A stretch of 64,000 bases of DNA, taken from positions 1 through 64,000 of the forward strand of contig NZ_AEWI01000020.1 of assembly GCF_000191885.1 (NCBI RefSeq). Reading direction: 5' to 3'. A program made the translations under genes and the position numbers. Numbering within the stretch: position 1 is the first letter of the stretch; each line of letters begins with the position of its first letter. The stretch is from Anaerophaga thermohalophila DSM 12881. GTDB taxonomy: Bacteria; Bacteroidota; Bacteroidia; Bacteroidales; Marinilabiliaceae. Shown here piece by piece: positions 1,261-56,758 of the stretch. The notes beneath the pieces are model-generated. The model saw only the letters and a list, made by a program, of their open reading frames with translations, was not told the DNA's origin and did no database searches.

Positions 1261-1343
1261 CATTGGCAATGCTATTTAGAACCCGGCTATAAAGAATACT
1301 TCTTTACCCGAAAAAAATGTTAAACACTAAAAATAATTAAAAT

Positions 1344-20084: not shown

Positions 20085-20231
20085 TGAGTGCGGACTAAAG
20101 AGCATTTTTATTACCGAACTCTATGTTGTTTTAAATTCTTGAATCCTCATTAATAATAAGTTAACTCCGGTACATAAATTTAAAACGCCTCTATTTTGAC
20201 AAAAATATGCCTTTTTATACCACTCTCATTG
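20085..20231 (-). repeat. Family A palindromic repeat, copy A3
   Basis: About 147 bp in reverse orientation: GATGAGTGCGGACTAAAGAG at one end, ATGCCTTTTTATACCACTCTC at the other, with TTTAAAACGCC and TTGTTTTAAATTC cores. Lies 36 bp upstream of the patatin start, so it could affect its promoter. Confidence 0.75.
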
Positions 20232-29993: not shown

Positions 29994-32498
29994 TTAGCGG
30001 TTAGCCGGTTTCAAAACATCTTCATTTCTTGTAAACGCAACATGATTGACAATAAGTCTGAGCTCGTCCCATGAAACTTCATCACCGAAATGTTGTTTGA
30101 TCTGAGTCAGAGTCTCTGCATGGTTCTCTTTAAGCCAGGCCTCTACTGCCTTTACTTTTTCAGAAGAAACAAATTGAAAGACATTTACCTCCCCCTTGCG
30201 CACAAAATGGCTGACATGATTATATATAGTACTTTTGGTCAATTGTCGCTCTTTGGCAATCTCATCAATATTTTTTCCTTTTTTAAAAAGGTTAAACGTC
30301 ACCTGTTTGGTATCAACCTTTTCTTTTTTCGGGGGAGACGGCGGAATCTCATATATTTCTTTATCGTCAACAGGTAAATCAAGATTTTTCTCCTTACAGT
30401 AGTCAAGAACAATATCAAGTACTTCCCGCCCGTATTGTTCCAGTTTGCTTTTCCCAAAACCGTGAATCTTCTTCAACGCCTTGAGTGAAGCGGGAAGTGC
30501 ATCGGCAATATGACGCATCGATTTCACCTGAAGAATCATATAAACCGGGCGATCTGACTCAGCCGCCCGCTCATCCCGCCAGTTTTTCAGGCGTGCATAT
30601 AATTCGGGGTGAGCAACTGACGCACTTACTGATTTTTGCCTTTCGGCTGAACTTTTGGGTATTTCCCCATTCTCCAATAAACCTTTGGCTTTTGCTTCGA
30701 GGTATTTCTTTACCGCAAATCCGTCTCTGCATGCGTCGAACGTATACCGGCGAACCATTATCTCATTGCCCAGGCGCTCGAAAGCCTGATTTAAAGTTTT
30801 TCGGACCGCTTTATTATCCGTTTCAATACTGAATTTTTCAAAAGGGATACCAAGACCTTTATCAGTCCTTTGATAAAACCACTCACAAGCCTTCTTCAGC
30901 CTGTCCTGTAAAAGATTTTCATTGCCCTGATCTGCGGTTTCATTAATCATTCGCTCCACCTGAGCCATGAACTTCTCGGCCACCGGTTTTAATTCCGATG
31001 TTACAAGTGTTTTCATTTTCCCAAGTTCAACGGGAAGTTCCATCCCTACGGAACCTTTGTTTTCGTAAACGACTCTCAGAGTATACGCCAGTTGCCTTTC
31101 CATGGAAGTAAAATCAAACATTTCCTTCAAAAGGGAGAACCTGTAGTTTCGTTTTGACTGTTCCAGTGAATCATCATCAGCAGGGTTTTCTTCCACGTTG
31201 CGGATAAAATTTTTCACTTCAGGATCGGTTTTTAGTGCTCTGACATCAAGGGGATTGGTCAAAACAAGTCCTTCGAGTGTTTTGCACCGGCTCAGCGCAA
31301 CATAAACCTGGCCGTGAGCAAAAGCGGCATTGGCATCTATTATAGCTTTTTCGAAGGTGAGTCCCTGGCTTTTATGAATAGTAATCGCCCAGGCAGTCTT
31401 CAGCGGATATTGCGTAAAAGTCCCTTCTACCTCTTCCCGAATTTCCCTGGTCTCTTCATCAATCTTATATTTTGTGTTATCCCAGCGGTCGGGTTTTACG
31501 GCAATTGCTTCGGGATCCTCCGGACATTTTACGAAGATGGTTTCTTTTGAAAAACCAGTTACCTTCCCGATTTTACCATTGTAATACAGTTTTTCCGGTG
31601 ACGAATCATTTTTTACAAACATAACCTGAGCGCCTGTTTTTAGGACAAGTTCATAATCTGTCGGGAAATTGCTTTCCGGGAAATTCCCTTCAACCCTTGC
31701 CGAAAATTTCCGTGGATTGCCGGCAAGCGCTTCAAGCCGGGCATTATTGATTCTTCGGGATTGGTAATTGTGAGTGGTTAGAGTAATGTACCCTTCCAAA
31801 TTGCCTTTCAACACTTCAGGCCGGTAACATCTATTGAGTAAGTCCAAACCTTCTGTATCGAGCCGGTTGTCTCTTATCTTATTCAGCAGTTCAATAAATT
31901 GTTCGTCCTGTTGACGAAAAATGTGTTTCAGCTCAATGCTCACATAATCTGTTTTCTGCAGAGCATGACTCCCAAAGAAAAAAGCCGACTGATAGTAGGG
32001 CCGCAGCAATTGCCATTCGTCGTCTTTCACAACCGGAGCAAGCTGCTGAAGATCACCAATCATCAGAAGCTGTACACCACCAAATGGTTTATCACTTTTT
32101 CGGAAACGGCGCAAAACCTCATCGATACCGTCAAGGAGGTCAGCCCTGACCATACTCACTTCATCAATAATCAGTAAATCAAGTGTTCTGAGTATATCAA
32201 TCTTTTGGCGACTGTAGCGGTGAGGATGGCGTGCATCCTGACCATTCACACCGGTTGATCCGGGCAATATTGGCCCAAAAGGAAGCTGGAAGAAAGAATG
32301 AATGGTCACACCCCTTGCATTGATGGCAGCCACTCCGGTTGGAGCAACAACAACCATGCGTTTAGGAAGTTCTTTCTGCAGATTGTGAAGAAAAGTAGTT
32401 TTTCCGGTTCCGGCTTTGCCTGTCAGAAAAACATTACGATTAGTAAATTCCACAAATTCGCGGGCAAGTCGGAGTTCAGGGTTAGTTTGGAAAGCCAT
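29994..32498 (-). CDS. Pif1/RecD-like helicase with HRDC and helix-turn-helix tail
   Basis: An 834-residue SF1B helicase. Walker A LTGKAGTGKTT at ~25-35, VVAPTGVAAINARG, Walker B LLIIDEVSMV, MIGDLQQLAPV, and motif VI-type KTAWAITIHKSQG. After the helicase core (about 450 residues) come an HRDC domain (~640-715, LKALKKIHGFGKSKLEQYG) and a RecQ-type helix-turn-helix (~745-790, GKNIDEIAKERQLTKSTIYN). This Pif1+HRDC+HTH architecture is common in Bacteroidota. Likely role: ATP-driven unwinding of DNA or G-quadruplexes during repair or replication. Monocistronic, convergent with the glycoside operon. Confidence 0.9.
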   Translation of the reverse strand: MAFQTNPELRLAREFVEFTNRNVFLTGKAGTGKTTFLHNLQKELPKRMVVVAPTGVAAINARGVTIHSFFQLPFGPILPGSTGVNGQDARHPHRYSRQKIDILRTLDLLIIDEVSMVRADLLDGIDEVLRRFRKSDKPFGGVQLLMIGDLQQLAPVVKDDEWQLLRPYYQSAFFFGSHALQKTDYVSIELKHIFRQQDEQFIELLNKIRDNRLDTEGLDLLNRCYRPEVLKGNLEGYITLTTHNYQSRRINNARLEALAGNPRKFSARVEGNFPESNFPTDYELVLKTGAQVMFVKNDSSPEKLYYNGKIGKVTGFSKETIFVKCPEDPEAIAVKPDRWDNTKYKIDEETREIREEVEGTFTQYPLKTAWAITIHKSQGLTFEKAIIDANAAFAHGQVYVALSRCKTLEGLVLTNPLDVRALKTDPEVKNFIRNVEENPADDDSLEQSKRNYRFSLLKEMFDFTSMERQLAYTLRVVYENKGSVGMELPVELGKMKTLVTSELKPVAEKFMAQVERMINETADQGNENLLQDRLKKACEWFYQRTDKGLGIPFEKFSIETDNKAVRKTLNQAFERLGNEIMVRRYTFDACRDGFAVKKYLEAKAKGLLENGEIPKSSAERQKSVSASVAHPELYARLKNWRDERAAESDRPVYMILQVKSMRHIADALPASLKALKKIHGFGKSKLEQYGREVLDIVLDYCKEKNLDLPVDDKEIYEIPPSPPKKEKVDTKQVTFNLFKKGKNIDEIAKERQLTKSTIYNHVSHFVRKGEVNVFQFVSSEKVKAVEAWLKENHAETLTQIKQHFGDEVSWDELRLIVNHVAFTRNEDVLKPANR

Positions 32499-32588
32499 AA
32501 CTGAGGTATTTAGATTTTTTAAAAGACGGACACCACTTCGATTTTTTTGGCGGAGCAGTTTTAATTCAATAGATCATCAGATATTTTA

Positions 32589-32731
32589 ATGAGTGTGGTA
32601 TAAAAAGCATATTTTTGTCAAAATCCAGGCATTTTAAATTTTTGTAACGAAATTAACTCGTTATTAATGAGGACACTAAATTTAAAACAACAACGAATTT
32701 AGCAACAAAAATGCTTTTTAGACCGGGCTCT
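32589..32731 (+). repeat. Family A palindromic repeat, copy A4
   Basis: About 143 bp: left tip ATGAGTGTGGTATAAAAAGC, core GGCATTTTAAATTTTTG and TAAAACAACAACG, right tip ATGCTTTTTAGACCGGGCTC. First of a cluster of repeats filling the 1.3-kb gene-free stretch 32499-33821. Apart from the repeats (A4, B1, A5 with B2, R4-R6) only AT-rich sequence is seen there (32940-33230). Confidence 0.8.
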
Positions 32732-32787
32732 TAAATTTAAGATACAATATAAATATTAAAACATTGATAATTTGCAATTTAAGTCAT

Positions 32788-32928
32788 AAGTGCAGTATAA
32801 AAAGCCTTCAAACTGCTGATTTTTACCATTTTTACCCTGACCCCTAAAGGGGAACTGCTAAAAATCAGCAGTTTAAAAAAGTCCCCTTTAGGGGATTTAG
32901 GGGTCAAAAGGCTTTTTAGACTGCACTC
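32788..32928. mobile_element. Family B hairpin element (MITE-like), copy B1
   Basis: 141 bp with tips AAGTGCAGTATAAAAAGCC and GGCTTTTTAGACTGCACTC, the same tips as family A. Inside, AACTGCTGATTTTTA is mirrored by TAAAAATCAGCAGTT, and GACCCCTAAAGGGG by CCCCTTTAGGGG. Flanked by the direct repeat AGTCAT (32782-32787 and 32929-32934), which looks like a 6-bp target duplication. No gene inside. Confidence 0.8.
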
Positions 32929-33232
32929 AGTCATAAAAACTTTTAAATATAAACAATTGATTTAAAATCGCCTGTAAAAGTTTAACGGACTATTGTTAAT
33001 GACACAATCATCAAAATTAAAGGATCGGAATTAATTTTTCAAAAATTAAAAGAAAATACAGCAATATTATCTTGTAAATATTTCATAATAAATTGATTAT
33101 ATTTAAAATTAATTCATCACAATACAACGCGCCTGTTTTTGCTTCTATCTTTATGTGATAATTGATCAGGCAAAAGAAAAAAACTCCCTATTTTTGTATA
33201 TCTCGTAAATCAAACTTATCCCTTTTAAATAC

Positions 33233-33511
33233 ATGAGTGCAGTATAAAAAGCATATTTTTGTCAAAATCCAGGCGTTTTAAATTTTGCACCGGAGTCAAC
33301 TTACTGTTACTGAGGATGCACAAATTTAAAACAACAATAAGATGAGTGCAGTATAAAAAGCCTTCAAACTGCTGATTTTTACCATCTTTACCCCTGACCC
33401 CTAAAGGGTAACTGCTAAAAATCAGCAGTTTGAAAAAGTCCCCTTTAGGGGATTTAGGGGTCAAAAGGCTTTTTAGACTGCACTCAAAGATGCTTTTTAG
33501 ACGGGACCCAT
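33233..33511 (+). repeat. Family A repeat A5, interrupted by B2
   Basis: The left half (ATGAGTGCAGTATAAAAAGC, GGCGTTTTAAATTTTG) and the right tip (AAAGATGCTTTTTAGACGGG) belong to family A; between them sits hairpin element B2. A dozen or so bases of A (around GAGTTTGGCAAC) are missing at the junction. Confidence 0.8.
33344..33485. mobile_element. Family B hairpin element, copy B2, nested in A5
   Basis: 142 bp, tips GAGTGCAGTATAAAAAGCC and GGCTTTTTAGACTGCACTC, almost identical to B1. Flanks TAAGAT (33338-33343) and AAAGAT (33486-33491) look like a 6-bp target duplication with one change. The insertion is in the right arm of a family A copy. Confidence 0.8.
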
Positions 33512-33570
33512 ACATTTTTCAATAATTTAACCAATGATAAATCCCGGTTTCGATCGGGAATTTAGAAAAG

Positions 33571-33821
33571 TATAAATTATTGCGTGCGAGTTCCATTAGG
33601 TCAATAACTTAGATTAATTTTATACGGATGAAACGAGCATGGCAAAGTTTTCCACAAAAGAACATGTATAAAACTCTTACATGCGAGTTCCATCAGACCA
33701 ATAACTTAGACTAATTTTATACTGATGAAACGAGCATGACAAAGATTGTCACAAAAGAACATGTATAAAACTCTTACATGCGAGTTCCATCAGACCAATA
33801 ACTTAGACTAAATTTATACTG
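33571..33821 (+). repeat. Tandem family R array (R4-R6), 97-bp period
   Basis: A partial unit (33571-33627) and two full units, with unit starts ATGAAACGAGCATG at 33628 and 33725 and a third ATGAAA at 33822, exactly 97 bp apart each time. Each unit contains hairpins TGACAA-AGA-TTGTCA (damaged in the first full unit), CATGTA...TACATG and CCATCAG...CTGATG. The array ends on the start codon of the peptidase gene, so the last bases of the repeat (TTTATACTG) form its leader and give its ATG. Confidence 0.85.
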
Positions 33822-35984
33822 ATGAAAAAACAATTTGCCCTCATAGCAGCCGGCCTGGCAATAATATCAGGCTGTGCAGACAAAAACAAAACAGATATGC
33901 GTCCTGCTTTCAATGCCGAAAAAGTTAAAGTAGAAAATGGTGTACTTACCCCGGAAATATTGTGGTCATTTGGCAGAATTGGTAATATTAAAGTATCACC
34001 CGATCACAAAAAAATTCTCTACACCGTAACCTGGCCTGATATCGAAAAAAACTCCTTCAATACCGATCTTTTCATGTCGAATATAGATGGGACGGACAAA
34101 AAGCGAATTGTTCCGTCCTTCAAAAAATCATGGACACTCAGCCTTTCGTTTGGTATAAAAAAGAAAGCAACGGACGACGGGGAAAATGAAAACTTCAGCA
34201 TCTCAGATGTCAACTGGCGCCCCGATGGAAAGAAAATTACTTTTATCAGCAACAAACCAGGAAGCAAACAATTGTTTGAAATGCTGCCCGACGGGAAAGA
34301 AGTCGTTCAGATAACAGACATCCCAGACGGTATTAAAGGATACAAATATGCCCCAAATATGGAACATCTGCTTATCGTCAGGGATATAAAACTGGATGAA
34401 ACACCTGCCGAAAAGTACTCAGACTTACCAAAAATAAATGCTCGCATAGAGGACGATCTGATGTACAGGCATTGGGATCACTGGCACGATTACAAATACA
34501 GTCACATTTATGTTACCTCTTATAAACCCGACAAATTGATTACGGATGCAACCGACATAATGGAAGGTGAACGTTACGACACCCCGCTTCAACCATTTGG
34601 AGGAATGGAACAAATAACCTGGACACCCGACAGCCGGGGAATAGCCTATACCTGCAAAAAAATGACCGGAAAGAATTATGCGCTTTCTACCAACTCCGAC
34701 ATATATCTTTACAACATAGATACAAAAATCACAAAGAACCTCACGGAAGGAATGCCAGGGTACGACAAAAACCCTGTATTCTCACCCGACGGACTGCGAA
34801 TGGCATGGGAAAGTATGCCACGTGACGGGTATGAAGCCGACAAAAACCGGCTGATGATAAAAGACCTGGAAACAGGGAAAGTCATTGATTACACGGCAAA
34901 TCTGGATCAGGACATACACAACCCCGTCTGGAACCTGATGGGAGATGCGCTCTTCTTTATCAGTAATCACCATGCCACAGAAGACATCTACCGCATTAAT
35001 CTGCCGGGTGGTGACATTCACAAAATCACCGAAGGTGTGCATAATTACACATCAGTCATTCCGGCCGGTGGTCAACTTATCGCTACCAGGATGAGCATGA
35101 ACATGCCTGCAGAAATTTTTGCTGTCAATCCCATAGATGGCACAGCTGCAAATATTTCAAAAGTCAACCTGCCAATTCTCAATAAACTCACTATGGGTGA
35201 AGTGGAAAAACGCTGGATTACAACCACCGACAATAAAAAAATGCTCACATGGGTCATCTATCCACCCAATTTTGATCCCCGTAAAAAATATCCGGCACTG
35301 TTGTATTGCCAGGGAGGGCCACAAAATAGTGTCAGCCAGTTTTGGAGTTATCGGTGGAACTTTCAGATGATGGCGGCCAACGATTACATAGTAGTTGCCC
35401 CAAACCGCCGCGGCCTGCCAGGCTTTGGCCGTGAATGGACAGAGCAGATCAGCGGAGATTACGGCGGACAAAACATGCAGGATTACCTCACTGCCATTGA
35501 CACACTTGCCAAAGAGCCTTTTGTTGATGAAGAAAACCTTGGGGCTGTTGGTGCAAGTTACGGCGGCTTCTCTGTTTATTGGCTCGCAGGAAATCATGAC
35601 AATCGCTTCAGCGCCTTTATATCTCATTGTGGTGTATTTAACCAGGATATGATGTATACAACCACGGAAGAAATGTTTTTCGTTAACTGGGATTTAGGCG
35701 GCCCTTACTGGGAAAAACCCGATAAAAGATATGATTTCTCTCCACACCTTTTTGTTGATAAATGGGACACCCCCATATTGGTCATTCACGGTGGAAAAGA
35801 TTTCAGAATCCCTTACACACAAGGGATGGCTGCCTTCAATGCGGCACAATTGCGAGGCATACCCTCCAAATTCCTGTTTTTCCCCGAAGAAAACCATTGG
35901 GTGCTTTCCCCCCAAAACGGAATTCTTTGGCAACGCGAATTCTTTGCATGGCTTAACAAATGGCTGAAGGAAGGAGAAAACTGA
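33822..35984 (+). CDS. S9-family (DPP-IV-like) peptidase lipoprotein
   Basis: A 720-residue serine peptidase. Lipoprotein signal with lipobox IISGC (Cys18), a seven-bladed propeller at ~50-430, and an alpha/beta hydrolase domain at ~450-720. Catalytic residues: Ser in GASYGGFS (~585), Asp in HGGKDFRIP (~665) and His in EENHWVL (~695). It would trim dipeptides or short peptides in the periplasm or at the cell surface. The start ATG is the last part of a tandem repeat array; no other start gives the signal peptide. Confidence 0.93.
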   Translation: MKKQFALIAAGLAIISGCADKNKTDMRPAFNAEKVKVENGVLTPEILWSFGRIGNIKVSPDHKKILYTVTWPDIEKNSFNTDLFMSNIDGTDKKRIVPSFKKSWTLSLSFGIKKKATDDGENENFSISDVNWRPDGKKITFISNKPGSKQLFEMLPDGKEVVQITDIPDGIKGYKYAPNMEHLLIVRDIKLDETPAEKYSDLPKINARIEDDLMYRHWDHWHDYKYSHIYVTSYKPDKLITDATDIMEGERYDTPLQPFGGMEQITWTPDSRGIAYTCKKMTGKNYALSTNSDIYLYNIDTKITKNLTEGMPGYDKNPVFSPDGLRMAWESMPRDGYEADKNRLMIKDLETGKVIDYTANLDQDIHNPVWNLMGDALFFISNHHATEDIYRINLPGGDIHKITEGVHNYTSVIPAGGQLIATRMSMNMPAEIFAVNPIDGTAANISKVNLPILNKLTMGEVEKRWITTTDNKKMLTWVIYPPNFDPRKKYPALLYCQGGPQNSVSQFWSYRWNFQMMAANDYIVVAPNRRGLPGFGREWTEQISGDYGGQNMQDYLTAIDTLAKEPFVDEENLGAVGASYGGFSVYWLAGNHDNRFSAFISHCGVFNQDMMYTTTEEMFFVNWDLGGPYWEKPDKRYDFSPHLFVDKWDTPILVIHGGKDFRIPYTQGMAAFNAAQLRGIPSKFLFFPEENHWVLSPQNGILWQREFFAWLNKWLKEGEN

Positions 35985-36044
35985 GTGAAATGATGAACCG
36001 GCGAAACCTTGTCATGCCCGTTTCATTTGCAAACGGCAAAATAA

Positions 36045-36431
36045 CTAAGGCTTTGTTGTTAGTTCTCGTTCTGCCCGCATGCGACGCCGACCTACAACAA
36101 CCATAAAAACAATGGAAACAGCTTTCAGAAGAAATCCACTCATTATAAGCCAGTGACCCAGGTCGATTCCGGGCATAGCACGCTTCAGATATCCTCCGCC
36201 TCCTACCATCGCTATTCCGCCAAATAACATAGCAAGGTAACGTCCGGCAGCCAGTGTGCCATTCAACAACCCGATAACCAGATAAGCCACTTTTAAACCA
36301 ATTCCGGGAATAAGAATATAATGATACCACTCAAAGCCTGTCAACAGAAGTCCTATCCCCAGAAGTACCAAAGCCAGACCTGTAAATAAAAGATATTTGT
36401 AATTCAACACGAGACCATTAAATTTTAACAA
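36045..36431 (-). CDS. Conserved membrane protein, unknown
   Basis: A 128-residue protein with four predicted membrane helices (LLFTGLALVLLGIGLLL, YILIPGIGLKVAYLVIGLL, YLAMLFGGIAMVGGGGYL, WLIMSGFLLKAVSIVFMVV) and a basic tail (GRRRMRAERE). I do not recognise the family. Gly-rich helices suggest tight packing. Convergent with the peptidase gene and not in an operon. Confidence 0.7.
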   Translation of the reverse strand: MLKFNGLVLNYKYLLFTGLALVLLGIGLLLTGFEWYHYILIPGIGLKVAYLVIGLLNGTLAAGRYLAMLFGGIAMVGGGGYLKRAMPGIDLGHWLIMSGFLLKAVSIVFMVVVGRRRMRAERELTTKP

Positions 36432-36596
36432 CCAAAAATTCTGTTTCGTCAGTTTTTATTCAACAGAAAATTAAGATTATTGTTCTAATTGTAAATATTT
36501 GAAGCATCGTGGCCTGATTAATTCATGAGTTTTAGTAATGAGATGTTCAAATATCAAGAAATAAAAGCCACGTCGGATAAAACCAGGAAAAAGAAT

Positions 36597-36902
36597 AATG
36601 AAACGAGCATGACAAAGATTGCCTTAATAGATTATCAGATTTTTAGATATCAGAAATTTAGTCAGTAGTTTTTAGTCAGTAGCCAGTAGCCAGTAGTGTG
36701 AATTATAAACACAATATACGTCTTTGCGTTTTAGCTTTTTTTACCAACCCCTGCAACACTGCAGTTTGCCCGTATAAAGAAAAAATATTTATAGTGATGA
36801 AACGAGCATGACAAAGATTGTCACAAAAGAACATGTATAAATAAACTCAATCATGCGAGTTCCATCAGACCAATAACTTAGATTAATTATATGCTGATGA
36901 AA
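36597..36902 (+). repeat. R7 fragment, D1 block and R8 copy
   Basis: 36597-36623 is a piece of R (ATGAAACGAGCATGACAAAG). 36640-36795 is the D block (GTCAGTAGTTTTTAGTCAG, then GTGAATTATAAACACAA and GCAACACTGCAGTTTGCCCG). 36796-36902 is a full R copy ending ATGCTGATGAAA. This composite recurs at 39586-39829. Confidence 0.7.
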
Positions 36903-37048
36903 AACAAATATTGTCCTATTAATTATTATTTTCGAGCCGGTTTTATTGAGTACCATTGTATTTCGCCGATAGTTGGACATTGTAATAGAAAATTTATGAA
37001 TAGATCAGGCCCGCTGTAATTCATTACATAGGAAAAATATAACAGTCA

Positions 37049-37304
37049 GAGTACGGTATAAAACGCATATTTTTGTCAAAATCAAGACGTTTTAAAATTT
37101 TGTACACGAGTTGATGAGGATTCATCAGCACAAAATTTGTCTAAATTATTGGTCTGATGAAACTCACGATGAATCGTAAGATCGGCGTTGGCCAATTTTG
37201 TTCATCCCTTTTTGAAAATTTGGCCCTCTCAAATTCATGTTCGTTTCAAAAATTTAAAATAATAACGAGTTTGGCAACAAAGATGCTTTTTAGACCTGGC
37301 TCAT
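37049..37304 (+). repeat. Family A repeat A6, interrupted by an R copy
   Basis: Family A tips GAGTACGGTATAAAACGC and GATGCTTTTTAGACCTGGCTC enclose, at about 37138-37250, a diverged reversed R copy (TTGGTCTGATGAAACTC ... TTCATGTTCGTTTC). With the preceding block it fills most of the 987-bp gap 36432-37418; no gene is seen. Confidence 0.7.
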
Positions 37305-37418
37305 AATAGTTTGCTTATCTTTATCACAACCTGAAATTCCCTCCCAAATAAAAACCATCCACAGAGATTTTTGTGGAGAAGGTGATTATTTACAAACAAC
37401 ATATCACACAGAAACTAT

Positions 37419-38237
37419 ATGGAAAGCAGCACAATGCTAATAACCGGTGCTTCTTCGGGGATTGGAATGGAAACGGTTCGTTATTTTGCAAGGCGAGGAT
37501 GGAAAGTAGCCGCCACAATGAGAAATACATCTAAGGCGGGAAAACTGGTTAATATCCCCGGTGTTGCTATATACAGGCTGGATGTAACACAACCGCACAA
37601 CGTTGAAGAAACGATAAACAAAGCCTGGAATGACATGAAGGGGATAGACGTTATTGTCAATAATGCCGGATACGGCGCCATCGGTATTCTCGAAGGGGCA
37701 AATGACGAACAAATCATCAGGCAGATGGACACCAACTTTTTTGGAACATTAAGAGTCATCAGAAACGTTCTACCCTTAATGCGAAAACGCGGACGGGGCA
37801 CAATCATAAACCTGTCATCCATTGCAGGCCGGATGGGGCTTCCTCTTTACTCGTTGTATCACTCAAGCAAATATGCTGTAGAAGGTTTTACCGAAAGCCT
37901 CTATTACGAAGCCCGCCCATTCAATATAAAAGTTCGCCTGATTGAACCCGGACCCATTCGTACCGAATTTAACGGCCGCTCGAAAGATGAAATTATTCCT
38001 CCCGACGATGAAAGATACATCGCCATTTCACAAAAAGTCTCCCATTTCTATAATGCAACCTTTAAATATGCTGCAGAGCCCAAAGTTGTGGCAAGTACAA
38101 TTTTCAGAGCAGCCAACTCAAAAGGAAACAGACTTCGCTATCCGGCAGGATTTCAATCACACATGCTTCTTTTTTTCTACCGGATTACGCCACTGCCTGT
38201 TTTTCGACTTATTACAAGATGGTTGATCAATATTTGA
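37419..38237 (+). CDS. SDR-family oxidoreductase
   Basis: A 272-residue classical short-chain dehydrogenase: TGASSGIG cofactor motif at ~10-17, NNAGYG at ~85, LSSIAG and the catalytic pair Tyr/Lys in LYHSSKYAVEGF (~150). The C-terminus is hydrophobic (HMLLFFYRITPLPVFRLITR), as in membrane-associated ketoreductases of this group. Cytoplasmic NAD(P)-dependent oxidoreductase, substrate unknown. Stands alone after a repeat-rich region. Confidence 0.92.
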   Translation: MESSTMLITGASSGIGMETVRYFARRGWKVAATMRNTSKAGKLVNIPGVAIYRLDVTQPHNVEETINKAWNDMKGIDVIVNNAGYGAIGILEGANDEQIIRQMDTNFFGTLRVIRNVLPLMRKRGRGTIINLSSIAGRMGLPLYSLYHSSKYAVEGFTESLYYEARPFNIKVRLIEPGPIRTEFNGRSKDEIIPPDDERYIAISQKVSHFYNATFKYAAEPKVVASTIFRAANSKGNRLRYPAGFQSHMLLFFYRITPLPVFRLITRWLINI

Positions 38238-38403
38238 AAAGAAAGGCATGATGTTAGATGATTAGATTTAAGATGATTAGATTTAAGATAATACTTATTC
38301 CAAATAAAGAGTTTTTGATTTCTTCCCATCTCCTGATCTAAATATCTAACATCAAATTATTTATTTTTGAACAACTTTACCCTTTATCAGTTAAACTTTT
38401 TTC

Positions 38404-39570
38404 ATGAAAACTCGTCAATTTATTATGTTTTTTGCAATAGTTCTTACAGTTCAGATACTGGTCAATTTATACCTGACCGTAAGGGGATATCAGGCTCTGG
38501 AAGCACATCCCAAAATCAGACCATGGTTTATTGTTTTCATGGTGGTAGCCACATTTTCGTATATGCTTGGCCGAACTCTGGGAAAAAGCATGTACAACGC
38601 GCTTACCGTTTCGCTTGACTGGTTAGGTGCTTTCTGGTTTGCGGTGATGCTTTATGCCACGATCCAGGTTTTTGCCATCGATCTGGCCCGATTGGTTAAT
38701 CTTGGCATTCCTTTTATTAAAAAAATTTCGGGAACGGATTACACAAAATTCAAATTCATTACCGGGATTGTCGTAGCAGGAATTACGTTTCTTATTGTTA
38801 CAGCCGGACATATTAATGCCTGGTATCCACGCATCGTCAATATCCCGCTAACCATCAATAAAAGTGGCGGAAACATGGACAGTCTGCGCATTGTGGCTGT
38901 CAGCGATATTCACCTGGGAACCATCATCGGACCGCGAAAAACGGGCAAACTGGTAAATACGATCAACAGCCTTAAGCCGGATATTATACTGATGGCGGGG
39001 GATGTACTCGATGAAGATGTAGGCCCGGTAATTCGTCAAAACCTCGGCGATTCATTGTGTAAACTGGAAGCACCCATGGGGGTCTATGCTTGCACCGGCA
39101 ATCACGAATACATTGGAGGTGTCGAACCTTCTGTCCGATATCTCGAACAACATGGAATAAAGGTATTGCGTGATACAAGTATCCTTATTAAAAATTCTTT
39201 TTATTTGATTGGAAGAGAAGATCGTTATGCCAATTTCAGATCAGACAAAAAACGAAAATCAATAGATGAATTATTGGCAGGAATTAACACTCAAAAACCT
39301 GTAATTCTTTTAGACCATCAGCCATATCAACTCGAAGAGGTGGCCAATACCGGTGTCGATCTTCAAATATCAGGACACACTCATCATGGACAGGTATGGC
39401 CCTTCGGATACATCACAGAACGAATGTTCGAAGTAAGCAGGGGCTACAAACAAAAAGGAAACACCCATTTTTATGTAAGTACGGGATTTGGCACCTGGGG
39501 CCCGCCGGTTCGCACCGGGAACAGACCCGAAGTAATGGTTTTTACCCTGAATTTTAACCCGGCTGAATAA
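38404..39570 (+). CDS. Membrane-bound metallophosphoesterase (YkuE/YaeI-like)
   Basis: A 388-residue protein with about four N-terminal membrane helices (residues ~1-145) followed by a calcineurin-like phosphoesterase domain. Metal-binding motifs: AVSDIHLG (DxH), LMAGDVLDE (GD), CTGNHEY (GNHE) and SGHTHHGQVWP (GHTHHGQ). Related enzymes act on lipid or UDP-sugar phosphates at the inner membrane. A composite repeat follows downstream. Confidence 0.92.
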   Translation: MKTRQFIMFFAIVLTVQILVNLYLTVRGYQALEAHPKIRPWFIVFMVVATFSYMLGRTLGKSMYNALTVSLDWLGAFWFAVMLYATIQVFAIDLARLVNLGIPFIKKISGTDYTKFKFITGIVVAGITFLIVTAGHINAWYPRIVNIPLTINKSGGNMDSLRIVAVSDIHLGTIIGPRKTGKLVNTINSLKPDIILMAGDVLDEDVGPVIRQNLGDSLCKLEAPMGVYACTGNHEYIGGVEPSVRYLEQHGIKVLRDTSILIKNSFYLIGREDRYANFRSDKKRKSIDELLAGINTQKPVILLDHQPYQLEEVANTGVDLQISGHTHHGQVWPFGYITERMFEVSRGYKQKGNTHFYVSTGFGTWGPPVRTGNRPEVMVFTLNFNPAE

Positions 39571-39585
39571 AGCTCAACAGATCGT

Positions 39586-39829
39586 TAGATTTTTAGATAT
39601 AAGTGATTTAGTTAGTAGTTTTTAGTCAGTAGTTTTTAGTCAGTAGTTTTTAGTTAGTAGTTTTTAGTTAGTAGCCGGTAATGTGAATTATAAACACAAC
39701 ATACGTCTTTGCATTTAAGCTTTTTTCCCCAACCCCGTGCAACACTACAGTTTGCCCGTATAAAGAAAGAATATTTGCAGTGATGAAACGAGCATGTCAA
39801 GGTTTGTCTCAAAAGAACATGTATAATTA
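39586..39829 (+). repeat. Family D block D2 with 14-bp tandem units and R10 fragment
   Basis: 39611-39680 is five tandem 14-bp units (GTTAGTAGTTTTTA / GTCAGTAGTTTTTA). Then come GTGAATTATAAACACAAC and CACTACAGTTTGCCCG as in D1, and at 39783-39829 a half R copy (ATGAAACGAGCATGTCAAGG). Same order as at 36640-36902 but with more 14-bp units. Confidence 0.75.
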
Positions 39830-39864
39830 ACCTCTAATCATCTAAGAAACCAAAAACAGGTAAC

Positions 39865-39933
39865 AGATTCTTCGTCGTTACCTCCTCAGAACGACAGGTG
39901 GCCCTTTGTCATTCTGAACGAAGTGAAGAATCT
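39865..39933 (-). repeat. Family E 69-bp palindromic repeat, copy E1
   Basis: AGATTCTTCGTCGTTACC to GAAGTGAAGAATCT, containing CAGAACGACAGGTGGCCC. The same 69 bp occurs inverted at 48838-48906, and a piece at 48608-48640. Tips AGATTCTTCG / CGAAGAATCT-like are inverted. Confidence 0.75.
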
Positions 39934-39973
39934 AAAAAAAGCAAACAGACTAAAATATGTGATTTTTATTGAT

Positions 39974-40114
39974 GAACTCAGTCTAAAAAGCATCTTTGTT
40001 GCCCAACTCGTTGTTGTTTTAATTTTTTGCATCCTCATTAACAACAAGTTAACTCCGATACAAAAATTTAAAACGCCTGGATTTTGACAAAAATATGCTT
40101 TTTATACTGCACTC
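39974..40114 (-). repeat. Family A palindromic repeat, copy A7
   Basis: 141 bp reversed: CTCAGTCTAAAAAGCATC to ATGCTTTTTATACTGCACTC, with TTTAAAACGCC inside. Part of the 901-bp gene-free stretch 39571-40471, which holds D2, R10, E1, A7, C2 and a short palindrome. Confidence 0.8.
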
Positions 40115-40151
40115 AATCATTAAACAACAATTTGAGAAAGATGATTAATTC

Positions 40152-40274
40152 GTGTCTGTCCTCAAAGTGCCAGTTACTGTGTTACGCTCGTCCGAAAATT
40201 ACTCATTTACGATGAGTAAACTTCGTATTTTCGGACTTCGCAAGCCTTATAAATGACACTTTCTGAACAGACGC
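40152..40274 (-). repeat. Family C 123-bp palindromic element, copy C2
   Basis: 123 bp, reverse of C1: GTGTCTGTCCTCAAAGTG at one end, CACTTTCTGAACAGACGC at the other; inner arms CCGAAAATTACTC and GTATTTTCGG. The length is identical to C1 and alignment is ungapped or nearly so. Confidence 0.75.
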
Positions 40275-40299
40275 ATGATAAGTAGGAAACTTTTCCTAC

Positions 40300-40345
40300 T
40301 TTATAGACAGGTACTAATTTGTGTCTGTCTATAAAGCAGGAAAAA
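40300..40345. repeat. Inverted repeat upstream of the ClC gene
   Basis: CCTACTTTATAGACAG and CTGTCTATAAAGCAGG form an inverted pair with a loop of about 14 bases, some 130 bp before the chosen start of the chloride channel gene. It may be part of its leader. Confidence 0.5.
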
Positions 40346-40471
40346 TATGTTCTTACTTTATTGACGGGAGCTAATGGCTTTTCTTGTGGAGAAGATTTTA
40401 TTAACTTAAACCCCAAATTAAGCAAACGGAAACAGGAAAACCGAATACATGGTGTTATACAAGGAACAATC

Positions 40472-42268
40472 ATGCAGATAAAAGAAAAATTAGCACCAGA
40501 TAAAATCTTAGGAACTCTTCTAAAATGGCGCATAAGACATGTCAGCAATCGCCAATTCATAATGTTTTTGAGCATCATCGTCGGCATTGCTTCCGGACTG
40601 GGGGCAGTAGCCATCAAAAACAGCGTTCATTATATCAGTGTATTGGTACAAAATGTCATTCATTCCGAAGGACCTGCCTATGTGTTCTTTATTTCTCCTT
40701 TTATCGGGATACTTTTAACGGTAATATTCATAAAATACATACTCAAACGACCTGTCCGCCACGGAATTCCAAATGTGCTCTACGCCCTTTCGAAAAGAAA
40801 GGGCCGAATCCGTCGACATAATATGTTCTCAAGCATCGTCGCAAGTGCATTGACTGTAGGTTTTGGGGGAAGTGTAGGACTTGAAGGCCCCGCTGTTGCG
40901 ACCGGTGCAGCCATAGGTTCCAATGTTGGCCGCTTATTTCGACTCAATTTCAGGCAAATCACTCTGCTAGTGGGATGTGCCTCAGCAGCAGCCATGTCGG
41001 CCATTTTTAAAGCACCTATTGCAGGCATTGTTTTTGCCCTTGAAGTGATCATGCTTGATCTCACCCTCTCGGCAATTGTTCCTTTACTTATGGCTTCAGC
41101 ATCGGCAGTGCTTACCTCCTATCTATTTATGGGACAACAGGTGCTTTATCCGGTAAATATTACCGAAACCTTTGTAATGGAAGATTTATTGTTCTACATC
41201 GTTCTGGGAATCATTACCGGATTTGTAGCTGTCTATTTTACAAAAGTATACCTATACATTGAACGGATATTTCTACGTATGAAGAAAGCATCCACCCGGC
41301 TGATTGCTGGCGGGGCAATGTTAGGTGTTTTACTTTTCTTTTTTCCGTCATTATACGGCGAGGGGTATGACATCATCAACACAGCCCTGAGCGGGGATGC
41401 TTCTTTTATTTATGACCAGGAGTTATTCTCCAACCTTCAGTATTTCTGGCCGGTTACCGTTGTTTTAATGTTGATGGTGATAGGACTCAAAGTTGTGGCA
41501 ACATCCATCACATTTGGTAGTGGTGGTGTGGGCGGAATTTTTGCTCCAACCCTGTTTATGGGCGCCAATACCGGACTTCTCTTTGCCTTTGTAGCTAACC
41601 AGATAGGATTTCACGGCCTGTCGGAACAGAATTTTGCGCTGGTGGGTATGGGAGGACTCATTGCAGGTGTTTTACAGGCTCCATTGACCGGCTTATTCCT
41701 CATCGCTGACGTAACAGGAGGTTACAAACTTTTTCTCCCGCTCATGATAACCGCTACCATCTCTTTTGCCACCGCCAAATCGTTTGTCAAAAACTCGGTC
41801 TACACACACCAGCTTGCCCGCCGGAAAGAGCTTCTCACCCACGATAAGGACCAGGTGGCATTAACTTTAATGGATGTTACGAAGCTTATAGAAACCGATT
41901 TCTCAAAAATATCGCCCGAAGCCACACTGGGAGACCTTGTCAAAGTAGTTTCAAAAGCTCACCGTAACCTGTTTCCGGTTGTCGATGATAAAGGAATGCT
42001 TCATGGCATGATAAAGATGGACGATATAAGAGATATACTATTCAAACCCGAACTTTATGATACTGTAAAGGTGAAAGACATCATGTATATGCCTGAATAT
42101 TATATCAGTCCTGACGACAGCATGGAAGACCTGGTAGAAATGTTCAGGAAATCGGGACGATTCAATATCGCGGTCATCGACAAGGGCAAATATCTTGGCT
42201 TCATATCACGAGCCCAGGCATTTACAGCTTATCGGAATTTTGTAAAACGATTTTCGGGAGAGTATTAG
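40472..42268 (+). CDS. ClC-type chloride channel with CBS pair
   Basis: A 598-residue inner-membrane ClC protein. Selectivity motifs: RHGIP (for GSGIP), GSVGLEGPAV with the gating Glu of GxEGP, and GVGGIFAPTLFMG. About ten or more membrane helices cover residues ~35-450; two CBS domains follow at ~475-590 (LFPVVDDKGMLHGMIKMDD, RFNIAVIDKGKYLGFISR), probably sensing nucleotides. I use ATG 40472 (MQIKEKLAPDK); the frame is open to a TTG at 40319 but those 51 residues look non-coding. Cl-/H+ exchanger or channel. Confidence 0.93.
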   Translation: MQIKEKLAPDKILGTLLKWRIRHVSNRQFIMFLSIIVGIASGLGAVAIKNSVHYISVLVQNVIHSEGPAYVFFISPFIGILLTVIFIKYILKRPVRHGIPNVLYALSKRKGRIRRHNMFSSIVASALTVGFGGSVGLEGPAVATGAAIGSNVGRLFRLNFRQITLLVGCASAAAMSAIFKAPIAGIVFALEVIMLDLTLSAIVPLLMASASAVLTSYLFMGQQVLYPVNITETFVMEDLLFYIVLGIITGFVAVYFTKVYLYIERIFLRMKKASTRLIAGGAMLGVLLFFFPSLYGEGYDIINTALSGDASFIYDQELFSNLQYFWPVTVVLMLMVIGLKVVATSITFGSGGVGGIFAPTLFMGANTGLLFAFVANQIGFHGLSEQNFALVGMGGLIAGVLQAPLTGLFLIADVTGGYKLFLPLMITATISFATAKSFVKNSVYTHQLARRKELLTHDKDQVALTLMDVTKLIETDFSKISPEATLGDLVKVVSKAHRNLFPVVDDKGMLHGMIKMDDIRDILFKPELYDTVKVKDIMYMPEYYISPDDSMEDLVEMFRKSGRFNIAVIDKGKYLGFISRAQAFTAYRNFVKRFSGEY

Positions 42269-42314
42269 GGGCGGGAGTTCCGGGCCCCTAAATCCCCAAA
42301 GAGGACTTTGGGAT
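42264..42314. terminator. Hairpins between convergent ClC and GroES-like genes
   Basis: TTAGGGGC / GGCCCCTAA overlaps the ClC stop, followed at 42291-42313 by AATCCCCAAAG / CTTTGGGATT. Likely a two-way terminator region. Confidence 0.6.
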
Positions 42315-42338
42315 TTGAGTTCCGGATTGGGGGTCAAT

Positions 42339-42722
42339 TTACTCAAATAATCCCTCATCCCTGATAAGCATTAAAATAGCAGATTGGGATACAATAACAT
42401 ACTGCTGATTATTGAATTCTATTTCGAAACCACTATTTTGTAGATAAATGGCCAAATCGCCTTCTTTGGGTTGAAGTGGCACGTAACGAACATTTTCATT
42501 TTTCGATTTCCAGGGTTCATCTTCCTCTGCAATAGCAGGGATAGGATAACCCGGACCAACTTTGATCACATACCCCGAATGAACTTTCTCTTTTTCCTGC
42601 ACATTGGGTGGAAGGAAAAGCCCCGACTTGGTTCGTTTTTCTGGCGTTTTGGGCTGAATAAGAACACGATCGCCAACCATGATAAATTTATTCAGGTCTT
42701 TTTCGTCAATTCCAAAAATCAT
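42339..42722 (-). CDS. GroES-like co-chaperonin protein
   Basis: A 127-residue protein with the Cpn10/GroES beta-barrel pattern (IMVGDRVLIQPKTPEKRTKS, GLFLPPNVQEKEKV, YVIKVGPG, EGDLAIYLQNSGFEIEFNNQ, YVIVSQSAIL). It is longer than ordinary GroES (~95 residues), with an acidic insert (AIAEEDEPWKSKNE) and no groEL beside it, so it is a paralogue typical of Bacteroidota. Start at ATG 42722; a longer frame to 42752 is AT-rich and unlikely. May mediate client-specific chaperonin contact. Confidence 0.85.
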   Translation of the reverse strand: MIFGIDEKDLNKFIMVGDRVLIQPKTPEKRTKSGLFLPPNVQEKEKVHSGYVIKVGPGYPIPAIAEEDEPWKSKNENVRYVPLQPKEGDLAIYLQNSGFEIEFNNQQYVIVSQSAILMLIRDEGLFE

Positions 42723-42763
42723 TTTTTTTGCTGCAAATATAAAAATAATCACAGTTAAAACTC

Positions 42764-42771
42764 TATTTTTG
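42764..42771 (+). promoter_or_regulatory. TAnnTTTG-type -7 element before the YfcC gene
   Basis: TATTTTTG matches the Bacteroidota -7 consensus 29 bp before the ATG at 42801, giving a leader of about 20 nt. Confidence 0.5.
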
Positions 42772-42800
42772 GAGTTGCCTAATCAGAAAGACCATTGCCA

Positions 42801-44390
42801 ATGTTTAAAAAAGTTCCCCATACTTACGTTATTGTTTTTTCTTTAATTGTTATCGCAGCTATTGCCACGTGGTTTGTGCCTGGAGGTGAGTATGTCCCGG
42901 CAGGAGAAGTTCCTGAAGATGGTTCTGCACCGGGGGTTGTTTTTGAACGAGTTGAGAGCCAGCCACAAACCTGGCAGGTTTTTTCGGCTCTTTTCGAAGG
43001 CTTTGAAAAGCAATCGGGTATTATTGTTTTTATTCTGATGATTGGTGGCGCATTCTGGATTTTGAATGACAGTAAGGCCATTGACATCGGCATTTTATCT
43101 TTCCTTAATTTCACCCGCAAGCTGGATAAATACAAAGCCATCAGGGTAATTGGCGCTAACAATTTGATCATCGTGATGATTATGCTCATGTTTTCGGTTT
43201 TTGGCGCAGTATTTGGCATGAGCGAAGAAACCATCGCTTTTGTGGTGATACTCGTTCCGCTGGCTATTTCGATGGGCTATGACAGTATTATGGGCGTAGC
43301 CATGGTGTTTGTAGCCGCCGGACTGGGATTTGCCGGCGCCGTGTTGAATCCGTTCACCATCGGAATAGCCCAGGGATTAGCCGGACTTCCTCTTTTCAGC
43401 GGTTTTGAATACCGTTTGTTTTGCTGGGTTGTTATTAATATTGTGGGTATATCATTCGTATTGTGGTATGGGACCCGTATAAAAAAAGATCCTGCAAGAT
43501 CGCCGGTTTATGAAGAAGACCACCATTGGCGGCATGAAATAAGTGAAAACAGTACAGCTATAAATCATCCAACATACAAAGCATCGTGGGTGGTATACTT
43601 TTTAATACTAACCGCACTCATACTCTTTTCGGTACAGTGGCCTTCAACAACCCTGAAAATAGGAGGAGGCGAAGGCATTACCGGCTGGTTTCTTCCCGCA
43701 CTTACAGGACTTTTTGCTATTGTGGGATTCAGCGCTTTAAGAAAATCGTCACCAGCCTTTGTCCTTGTCATTTTAGGTTTCACCATATTGTTTCTAATCA
43801 TCGGCGTTATGGGATTTGGCTGGTACATCATGGAAATTGCCACCCTGTTTTTCGCTATGGGCATTTTATCGGGGATAGCAATGAACAATAGTGCCGACCG
43901 CATCACTCACCTGTTTCTGGAAGGCGCAAAAGACATCATGTCGGCCGCTTTGATCGTTGGTCTTGCGGGCGGCATTATCGTAATACTTGAAAACGGAAAA
44001 ATTGTACATACCATTCTCCATGCAATGGCAGGAGGCATGAAAGACCTGGGAAATATTGCTTCGGTTAATGTTATGTACGTCATTCAAACATTAATAAATA
44101 TCATTATTCCCAGTGGTTCGGCCAAGGCTGCACTTACCATGCCTATCATGGCCCCGTTCAGTGATCTTATTGGTCTGTCACGACAAGCCACTGTTATGGC
44201 CTTTCAGTTTGGCGACGGCTTCACCAACCTTATTACCCCCACATCCGGAGTACTTATTGGTGTACTGGGAGTAGCCCGAATTCCCTACGTGAAATGGGCG
44301 AAGTGGATAGGACCACTCATTACGATATTGATTATTCTTGGATTCTTACTTCTTATCCCTACCGTAACAATGAATTTAAATGGTTTTTAA
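42801..44390 (+). CDS. YfcC-family transporter (basic amino acid / C4-dicarboxylate carrier superfamily)
   Basis: About 529 residues, a 12-helix or so inner-membrane carrier. Family features: HTYVIVFSLIVIAAIATWFVPGGEY with the first helix and PGGEY loop, GMSEETIAF, GAVLNPFTIGIAQGLAGLPLFSG, and PSGSAKAALTMPIMAPFSDL near the end. Members are annotated as arginine/ornithine or basic amino-acid exchangers, but substrate is not certain. Start ATG 42801; a TTG two codons earlier is possible. Divergent from the GroES-like gene. Confidence 0.88.
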   Translation: MFKKVPHTYVIVFSLIVIAAIATWFVPGGEYVPAGEVPEDGSAPGVVFERVESQPQTWQVFSALFEGFEKQSGIIVFILMIGGAFWILNDSKAIDIGILSFLNFTRKLDKYKAIRVIGANNLIIVMIMLMFSVFGAVFGMSEETIAFVVILVPLAISMGYDSIMGVAMVFVAAGLGFAGAVLNPFTIGIAQGLAGLPLFSGFEYRLFCWVVINIVGISFVLWYGTRIKKDPARSPVYEEDHHWRHEISENSTAINHPTYKASWVVYFLILTALILFSVQWPSTTLKIGGGEGITGWFLPALTGLFAIVGFSALRKSSPAFVLVILGFTILFLIIGVMGFGWYIMEIATLFFAMGILSGIAMNNSADRITHLFLEGAKDIMSAALIVGLAGGIIVILENGKIVHTILHAMAGGMKDLGNIASVNVMYVIQTLINIIIPSGSAKAALTMPIMAPFSDLIGLSRQATVMAFQFGDGFTNLITPTSGVLIGVLGVARIPYVKWAKWIGPLITILIILGFLLLIPTVTMNLNGF

Positions 44391-44630
44391 TGTTGATAAA
44401 TGTTTAGATGTCAGATTTGACAGGCGTATATGATGATTCGTATTAAACTTCAAAAAGACTTTCGAAAACAAACAATTAGAAAGAGTCAGCTATTGGCCGT
44501 TAATGGCTTAACAGACTATTGCAATGTGGTATTATTTATAAAATTCACGATACTGAATGATTAAAATTTCTTTCCCTGATCCTGTTGTTTTTGTTACAGG
44601 TTTGTTAATATTGCAAAAAGACAATTCTTT

Positions 44631-45152
44631 ATGGCACGTCCCGAAAAAGTTCTCAAATATTGCCCCAGCTGCGGTTCAGGGCTTTTCAAGCCCGATTCGC
44701 CAAAATCATTTCATTGTAGCAGTTGCGGTTTTAAATTTTTCATTAACAGTGCTGCTGCAGTTGCTGCCATTATTGAAAATGATACCGGAGAAATATTACT
44801 AACAGTGAGAGGTGTAGAACCGGCTGTTGGCGCACTTGACCTGCCGGGTGGCTTCGTTGACCCAATGGAAAGCGGTGAAGAAGCATTAAAACGAGAAGTA
44901 AAAGAAGAACTGAATCTGGATATATCAGAAATGCATTATCTGATTAGCTATCCAAATGAATACATCTATAATGGTTACTCGGTTTTTACGACCGATTACG
45001 GATATGCCTGCAAAGTAAAGCACTTTGACAGCATAAAAGTAGCCGATGACATAGCCGATTTTCAGTTTTTCAATCCAAAGGAAATTGATTTTAATAAAAT
45101 CAGCAGCAATTCAATTAAGAAAATATTGAAATTCTACATTGGCGGCAAATAA
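44631..45152 (+). CDS. Nudix hydrolase with N-terminal zinc ribbon
   Basis: A 173-residue protein: zinc ribbon CPSC...CSSC at ~10-32 and a Nudix domain with a complete box, GGFVDPMESGEEALKREVKE then EL (GX5EX7REUXEE). Similar to NudC-like proteins without the NADH-specific SQPWPFPxS tail, so a nucleotide-sugar or (d)NTP pyrophosphatase is likelier. Its stop overlaps the next gene's start by 1 bp (ATGA-like junction), indicating an operon. Confidence 0.92.
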   Translation: MARPEKVLKYCPSCGSGLFKPDSPKSFHCSSCGFKFFINSAAAVAAIIENDTGEILLTVRGVEPAVGALDLPGGFVDPMESGEEALKREVKEELNLDISEMHYLISYPNEYIYNGYSVFTTDYGYACKVKHFDSIKVADDIADFQFFNPKEIDFNKISSNSIKKILKFYIGGK

Positions 45153-45802
45153 TGACAAACGAATTAACAATACTCACCTGGAGCGCAGCAAGCATTGGTT
45201 TCGTACATACCATTCTGGGACCCGACCATTACCTGCCGTTTATTATGATAGGACAGGCGCGTAAATGGAATCTCTCTAAAACTTTGATTTTAACAGCCGT
45301 GTGTGGTATTGCCCACGTTTTGAGCAGCGTATTAATCGGGATTGCCGGTATTATCATAGGCATGCAGGTTCAGAAACTAACGTGGATTGAAGAAATAAGA
45401 GGAAATCTTGCTGCATGGGGACTTATTGCTTTCGGTCTCGCTTATGCTGTATGGGGGCTGAGACATTACTTCAAGCATAAAAACCTAAAAGCAAAAAATG
45501 ATAATTCAGTCAATTCTACCAGGACTACTCCCTGGATGCTTTTTATCATATTCATACTTGGCCCCTGCGAACCATTAATCCCAATATTGATGTATCCGGC
45601 TGCTCATTATAGCGTACAAGCTCTAATAATGGTTACAACAGTTTTTGCCGTAGTTACTATTGGAACGATGCTAATAACCGTATGGGCTGCCTTTTCAGGG
45701 CTGTCTCAATTAAACATGCATAAATTACAACCCTATTCACATTTTCTTGCCGGCATCATTATCTTTGCGTCTGGAATATCCATACAATTTTTAGGACTCT
45801 AA
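45152..45802 (+). CDS. NiCoT/RcnA-like membrane transporter
   Basis: A 216-residue inner-membrane protein with about six helices. The first helix carries SIGFVHTILGPDHYLPFIM, like the His/Asp-rich signature of nickel/cobalt transporters and UreH/RcnA-like proteins; a second conserved helix has GIAHVLSSVLIG, and the fourth starts ILGPCEPLIPI. Probably metal transport; whether Ni, Co or something else cannot be told. Coupled to the Nudix gene upstream and 10 bp from the small gene downstream. Confidence 0.8.
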   Translation: MTNELTILTWSAASIGFVHTILGPDHYLPFIMIGQARKWNLSKTLILTAVCGIAHVLSSVLIGIAGIIIGMQVQKLTWIEEIRGNLAAWGLIAFGLAYAVWGLRHYFKHKNLKAKNDNSVNSTRTTPWMLFIIFILGPCEPLIPILMYPAAHYSVQALIMVTTVFAVVTIGTMLITVWAAFSGLSQLNMHKLQPYSHFLAGIIIFASGISIQFLGL

Positions 45803-45812
45803 AGCAGCTCTT

Positions 45813-46169
45813 ATGCCACAGAAAACCGATCTGACCGGATTCTGGCGTTTCCGTGAAGAATTTGACACGGGCGAAGATGTTGGTGAAGCCAGACTGTTTC
45901 AAAAAGGCAAAAATCTGTCGGGTCATTTAGTATTCAAAGAGATAATTCCTGGCGACCCTGCCATGTTTGTCAGAACCAAACTAACAGGAAAAATTGAAAA
46001 CAGGAAGGTTTATCTCAACGAAACTTCAGTTATTGTTTTATCTGAGGGCAAAGAAGATTATGTGCCCGAAGAAAGGAAAGGTCTGCTCAATGCCTTGGGA
46101 CAGATTGTCGGTTCCGGTGAAGACCAACAAGGCGTTCACGGGGTGTTTGTGCTGGAACGTATTTTTTAA
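45813..46169 (+). CDS. Small conserved protein, unknown
   Basis: A 118-residue soluble protein without signal or membrane helix, beta-rich (LTGFWRFREEFDTGEDVGEA, LSGHLVFKEIIPGDPAMFVR), resembling lipocalin-like or single-domain enzymatic inhibitors only in general pattern. Not recognised. It is the third gene of a tight set with the Nudix and NiCoT-like genes. A truncated family A repeat starts just after its stop. Confidence 0.7.
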   Translation: MPQKTDLTGFWRFREEFDTGEDVGEARLFQKGKNLSGHLVFKEIIPGDPAMFVRTKLTGKIENRKVYLNETSVIVLSEGKEDYVPEERKGLLNALGQIVGSGEDQQGVHGVFVLERIF

Positions 46170-46178
46170 TTCAAGTTT

Positions 46179-46263
46179 TGAGTGCAGTCTAAAAAGCATC
46201 TTTGTCGCCAAACTCGTTGTTGTTTTAAATTTTTAAATCCTCATTAACAATAAGTTAACTCCC
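46179..46263 (-). repeat. Family A repeat, truncated copy A8
   Basis: Right-arm half only: GAGTGCAGTCTAAAAAGCATC through GTTGTTTTAAATTTTTAAATC to TTAACTCCC, ending abruptly before the left arm. Confidence 0.7.
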
Positions 46264-46380
46264 ACTGGTGCGGATTACCAGAATTACTGCCTTCGATACT
46301 CTCAAGAAATGTTTGAAGACCAAAACGTTCATTATCAACTCATGAATAATTTTGATGTTGAATTTTAAAAGGGAGAAATA

Positions 46381-56639: not shown

Positions 56640-56697
56640 ACTTAATCTGTTAATTTGAAAATTTTAAAGCATAATAAAACGAGTATGTAAGATTTAA

Positions 56698-56744: not shown

Positions 56745-56758
56745 TGTTTTTCAAAGGG

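Follow-up and report, generated by a model that had tools for sequence, protein, structure and literature searches.

Tip-sharing palindromic elements with unrelated interiors and 6-bp target duplications in Anaerophaga thermohalophila

Four palindromic elements in the interval from the end of one gene at 32498 to the start of the next at 33822 raise the question of whether two families of short repeats, alike at their tips and unrelated inside, are both mobile and are moved by the same enzyme. They are part of a 64,000-nucleotide stretch (the window) of Anaerophaga thermohalophila DSM 12881 (NZ_AEWI01000020.1), which belongs to contig C192 of genome G000 (4,324,239 bases in 211 contigs, 98.65% complete and 5.39% contaminated). 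A sequence-only reading had described the two families, A and B, and suggested searching the genome for their tips, for further copies and empty sites, and for a transposase gene between the same tips. Here, G000 was compared with a second genome of the genus, A. thermohalophila Valhall (G001), and with genomes from outside the genus. In our view, A and B are very probably non-autonomous DNA transposons (MITEs), forming one tip-sharing group that would be served by a transposase acting in trans.

Element copies and their tips

The copies found in the window are listed in Table 1. The sizes proposed earlier (about 140 bp for A and 141 bp for B) hold, as does the lack of relationship between the interiors, with an A versus B identity of 0.517 that falls inside the shuffle range (maximum 0.529). 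Within 1.58 Mb of G000, the length was 138-144 bp in 151 of the 193 A and B pairs. The elements are thus short, with tips at both ends, and at 141 bp would not be expected to hold a gene. Strong hairpins were predicted for all three folded copies (z of -4.4 for A1, -7.7 for B1 and -10.6 for B2), and an Rfam search of window 32000-34000 gave nine weak matches, none at the gathering level.

Table 1. Family A and B copies and adjoining target duplications in the window, annotated according to the MITE reading
Feature	Position	Strand	Basis
A1, family A MITE	32591-32730	+	Tips and flanks TTTAAT (32585-32590) / TTAAAT (32731-32736), 5/6 match; hairpin z -4.37
B1, family B MITE	32788-32928	+	Tips and flanks; hairpin z -7.73
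B1 left target duplication AGTCAT	32782-32787	.	Sequence read
B1 right target duplication AGTCAT	32929-32934	.	Sequence read
A2, family A MITE split by B2	33235-33509	+	Tips and flanks; missing from orthologous G001 site
A2 left target duplication ATACAT	33229-33234	.	One ATACAT only in G001
A2 right target duplication ATACAT	33510-33515	.	Sequence read and G001 comparison
B2, family B MITE within A2	33344-33485	+	Flanks TAAGAT (33338-33343) / AAAGAT (33486-33491), 5/6 match; hairpin z -10.57
Further A copy	20086-20227	-	Flanks ATTGAT/ATTGAT
A copy containing family C repeat	37049-37302	+	Flanks agree at 1/6
Further A copy	39974-40114	-	Flanks agree at 4/6
Older A copy	1122-1258	+	Flanks agree at 4/6

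Ten matches to GAGTGCAGTATAAAAAGC (up to three mismatches) occur in the window against 0.05 expected, and the suggested genome-wide tip search returned 388 matches to GAGTGCAGTMTAAAAAGC (at most one mismatch) in G000, with none for the reversed control. Tip consensus sequences were derived from 37 A and 24 B copies of the first G000 sample. The two families match at the left tip (GAGTGC(A/G)GTATAAAAAGC in A, GAGTGCAGTATAAAAAGC in B), and a core, GAG....GTMTAAAAAGC, is common to the tips of both families. On the right, the commonest A tip is GAGCCCGGTCTAAAAAGC and the B consensus is GAGTGCAGTCTAAAAAGC; A is usually unlike B at positions 4-7, with CCCGG the commonest core in A (18/37) and TGCAG in B (21/24). 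The claim that the two families have the same ends thus stands for the left tip and the core but not for most A right tips, and the right tip given for both, GACTGCACTC, is that of B, whereas the right end is GACCGGGCTC in A1 and GACGGGACCC in A2. Moreover, most copies of both families show the same asymmetry at tip position 10, which is A on the left (36/37 A and 21/24 B copies) and C on the right (34/37 and 16/24).

Apart from the central cluster, window 1-2605 is a tandem duplication of about 1.3 kb (1-1259 versus 1344-2605, 92% identical) with an A copy in each unit, and G001 has a similar tandem (89.6%) at L390 9120-11756.

Target duplications, empty sites and nesting

A census of tip pairs was carried out on 1,583,395 bases of G000 (37% of the genome), which were partly chosen for holding tips and whose element density is not representative. 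After dropping five duplicates, 209 pairs were left, comprising 144 A, 49 B, three A with a B inside and 13 unclassified. Identical 6-bp flanks were observed in 88 of them, whereas over 2000 shuffles of the right flanks the mean was 2.5 and the maximum 10, so the consistent duplication looked for across genome copies is present and has a fixed length: identity at other lengths was seen in 13 pairs at 3 bp, one at 5 bp, 11 at 7 bp and none at 4, 8 or 9 bp. The remaining 121 pairs have no perfect duplication; these include all 13 unclassified ones, which are probably false pairs. The earlier view of B as a non-autonomous transposon with 6-bp target duplications agrees with 24 perfect cases among its 49 pairs, and the flanks reported for B1 and B2 were both confirmed (Table 1). 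It had credited such duplications to B only, but they surround 62 of the 144 A pairs and two of the three composites as well, and since A2 carries a perfect duplication of its own, A is also a transposon. The duplicated hexamers follow the pattern A....T in 80 of 88 cases (10% in the background) and AWNNWT in 65 of 88 (5.6% in the background).

Filled and empty versions of the same site, the collection of which had also been suggested, were obtained at three sites between G000 and G001; many other rows of this comparison were chance matches of repeats in the flanks. The clearest concerns A2: the orthologous site of G001 reads uninterrupted, ATACATTTTTCAATAA, where the window has A2, with B2 in it, between two ATACAT copies, and A2 is thus precisely absent there. 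Conversely, an element of G001 (L384 13070-13210), whose own flanks AAGTAT/AAGGAT match at 5/6 only, is absent from window 56612-56909 (93% identity over 300 bases), and another (L375 13958-14099), with ATGATT on both sides, is absent in G000 (L372). For B1, no clean empty site was found in G001, where the region differs more widely.

As first read, B2 is inserted in A2. To its right follow AAAGAT and the final 18 bp of A, and the host copy is about 13 bp shorter there than other A copies, which is why the duplication around B2 is imperfect. The same hexamer of a host A copy is also occupied by a further B element at L014 of G000 and by an A element at L380 of G001, a repeated location that fits the A....T rule.

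An earlier sample (741,508 bases of G000 and G001, 97 tip pairs) was used for the overlap with open reading frames. Only one of the 54 elements whose flanks match at 5 or 6 of 6 positions lies inside a reading frame of at least 150 aa, although such frames make up 75% of the sampled DNA. This intergenic location, together with the strong folding and the T runs in the tips, would also be expected of immobile hairpins, e.g., transcription terminators, that only resemble transposons. Yet the sister genomes differ in the presence of elements with 6-bp duplications, the empty sites contradict immobility and the elements are nested in one another, which makes that explanation barely tenable; a terminator effect is possible as a by-product.

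It is also conceivable that A gained or kept B-like tips through recombination between elements and that only one family has recently been mobile. The best-scoring B copies are 95-98% alike versus an average of 79% for A, and B is the rarer family in G001 (2 B versus 17 A pairs), so B looks like a younger burst in G000. Nevertheless, the perfect duplications of A and its precise empty site imply that both families have moved, and we regard an exchange of tips as improbable.

As for the enzyme, the two families may instead depend on related but separate transposases, the likeness of their tips stemming from common descent of the parent transposons. Positions 4-7 distinguish the right tips of A and B and vary among genomes too, as this would predict, but the left tips agree and the pooled A and B copies show one duplication length and one A....T preference; two enzymes thus seem unlikely to us, though less so than tip exchange. 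Given the shared core, a common enzyme for A and B is likely, and it fits the position-10 asymmetry, the 6-bp duplication and the A....T target. Such a transposase, supplied in trans, would recognize tips of 17-18 bp, GAG....GTMTAAAAAG(C), and cut AT-rich A....T sites (mostly AWNNWT) with a 6-bp stagger. Any short DNA between two tips would then be inserted, the interiors being passengers, and repair would leave the 6-bp duplication.

Interiors and spread beyond the genus

The interior of B offers a hint of how such a passenger might be acquired. In 1.28 Mb of G000, all 34 occurrences of its AAGTCCCCTTTAGGGGATTTAGGGG unit (up to three mismatches) lie inside tip pairs. The same unit is found without tips on a Spirosoma plasmid, where it forms an inverted pair, and in nine viral stretches. 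This points, without proof, to an older palindromic repeat that became family B once it was flanked by tips. Against plasmids, B1 matched one record over 30 bases, in the interior only, and A1 had no match; B1 had no match among phages. A viral contig (IMGVR_UViG_3300020048_000311, L440 3140-3390) has a small CRISPR-like array of four 36-bp repeats, one 30-base spacer of which holds the CCCCTAAATCCCCTAAAGGGGACTT unit of family B.

Other repeats were observed in and around tip pairs. A third family, C (GATGAAACGAGCATGAC / CATGCGAGTTCCATCAGACC), has a 97-bp unit and is arranged in tandem in the window (33574-33834, 36843-36909 and 37049-37302). Over 1.28 Mb of G000, 190 occurrences of its head motif fell outside tip pairs and five inside, and C lies inside 10 of 152 tip pairs, in several of them at one and the same position of A. 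Contig C7 of G000 (L391) is 99.88% identical to window 33460-47691 over 14 kb and seems one C unit shorter in the tandem; it may represent either a second strain or a duplicate of the contig. In addition, two loci (L254 and L181) have tip-bounded elements with CACTAAGACACAAAG or CGCTAAGACGCAAAG palindromes in the interior, and a related sequence, CTTTGCGTCTTTGCGT, was counted 14 times in the 1.28 Mb taken from G000, never inside tip pairs.

The tips extend beyond G000. Among 393 genomes of the order, 20 have a related tip pattern, GAGTNNNGTCTAAAAAGC, some single matches possibly due to chance. A scan of the class with GAGTYNRGTMTAAAAAG gave matches in nine of 395 genomes including G000, besides which only G770 had more than one. 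Loci of 19 genomes outside the genus were sampled and 66 tip pairs were recovered from 18 of them. Identical 6-bp flanks were found in 42 of these pairs (shuffle mean 1.3, maximum 6), the first letter of the duplication being A in 37 and the last T in 39. Since single-linkage clustering of the interiors merged unrelated ones, only the flank counts were used from it, and relatedness was judged from identities. An A-like interior is present in G179 (0.70, shuffle maximum 0.53) and B-like ones in G049 (0.64), G075 (0.80), G416 (0.85) and G368 (0.77). A 154-bp type shared by G046 and G101 (0.63) is unlike A or B, and the interiors of G770 and G118 are unlike B. One tip type therefore carries several unrelated interiors. 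In viral contigs, a looser tip, GAGTNNNGTMTAAAAAGC, was matched in 67 stretches, no more than expected by chance according to a rough estimate with an assumed collection size; none of them showed a complete element whose flanks match, and one stretch (L316) has a single right end resembling the 154-bp type.

Transposase candidates and related systems

The search for a tip-flanked transposase gene gave none in 37% of G000 or in the fetched loci. Of the 272 exact tips in the 1.58 Mb of G000, 267 are matched by a second tip (up to four mismatches) no more than 480 bp away. The remaining five open with A or B sequence, and four of these are at most 108 bp from where the stretch ends. Of 40 places where a tip is followed by sequence other than A or B, 31 were read, and these were A/B variants or isolated tips. 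Identical flanks were present in 18 rows of tip pairs spaced 346-8000 bp, all with at least three tip mismatches in total and none accepted, and pairs 400-4500 bp apart gave four, none convincing, only one having 150-codon reading frames but a tip with four departures. A search for units of 700-3500 bp with an initial G, inverted ends, identical 6-bp flanks and a reading frame over more than half their length, run with no positive control, returned zero.

Searches by domain (PF01609, PF13751 and PF14294) likewise yielded no transposase bounded by A or B tips. PF01609 had eight matches in G000, two in G001 and one in G049, none of them within a tip pair, the single tip seen (L133) standing apart from the element, and PF13751 had none; tips around a transposase of either model, as an IS4/IS5-type (DDE_Tnp_1) relationship of A and B would entail, were thus not found. 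Separately, these searches revealed a 1857-bp insertion sequence, carrying a DDE_Tnp_1 gene and having inverted ends CGGAACTTCCT, in three identical copies (L132, L133 and L134, on G000 contigs C192 near 95 kb, C205 and C208). Multi-copy DNA was also considered as the parent element and discarded, its ends carrying other repeats. A tip in G364 (L179) near a short reading frame, which we take to be DUF4372-like, was considered as a deleted parent and dropped, the eight loci with a DUF4372 match having no recognizable tip. A multi-copy transposon may have been lost from the 211-contig draft of G000, and we know of no common insertion-sequence family that combines such GAG ends with a fixed 6-bp duplication.

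REP and REPIN palindromes are abundant and intergenic, are moved by RAYT proteins, and REPINs are not known to produce a target duplication. A and B resemble them as abundant intergenic palindromes, the B interior unit forming an inverted pair elsewhere, but differ in their long terminal repeats and in the 6-bp duplications. A crude RAYT motif, run against a portion of the G000 and G001 sequences, gave four reading frames, none recognizable as RAYT by eye.

Closer parallels are found among the MITEs of Bacteroidota. In the same order, the BrickBuilt, MITEPgRS and MITE464 elements of Porphyromonas gingivalis combine near-identical terminal repeats with unrelated interiors (PMC4596501), so this arrangement is already described; BrickBuilt is likewise intergenic. 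The terminal repeats of those MITEs are close to those of full-length insertion sequences that might move them, IS5-family partners being known, but their tips (GAGACCTTCGCA, GAGACTGTTGCA) are unlike those of A and B, the duplication length was inconsistent in the copies examined, in contrast to the fixed 6 bp seen here, and the BrickBuilt copy number, 19, is far below that of A and B (PMC4596501). MITECca01 of Cardinium is also a short, gene-less Bacteroidota element with insertion-sequence terminal repeats at its ends; it has one deletion-derived interior and a known, present parent, the IS982-family ISCca4 (PMC9769881), whereas A and B have unrelated interiors and no parent was found for them. 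Literature searches, which included GGTCTAAAAAG (in one unrelated paper) and AGTCTAAAAAG (absent from the 8 papers listed of 1,439) as text, returned no account of the tips. As far as these searches go, the group of tips is new, as are its spread and target rule.

A further-reaching possibility, which we put forward tentatively and consider more doubtful than probable, is that these tips are those of an undescribed transposase family with 6-bp duplications at AWNNWT and serve in Bacteroidales as a general carrier, in which tip pairs capture palindromic repeats of other origin, such as the REP-like units in B, and multiply them as new MITE families. The elements described here constitute a high-copy MITE group in several families of Bacteroidales, whose 6-bp, A....T footprint can be used for tracing its transposase. 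They are also a good example of one tip set with several unrelated interiors, from which it follows that MITE families may form by acquiring new interiors and not just by deletion within a parent transposon.
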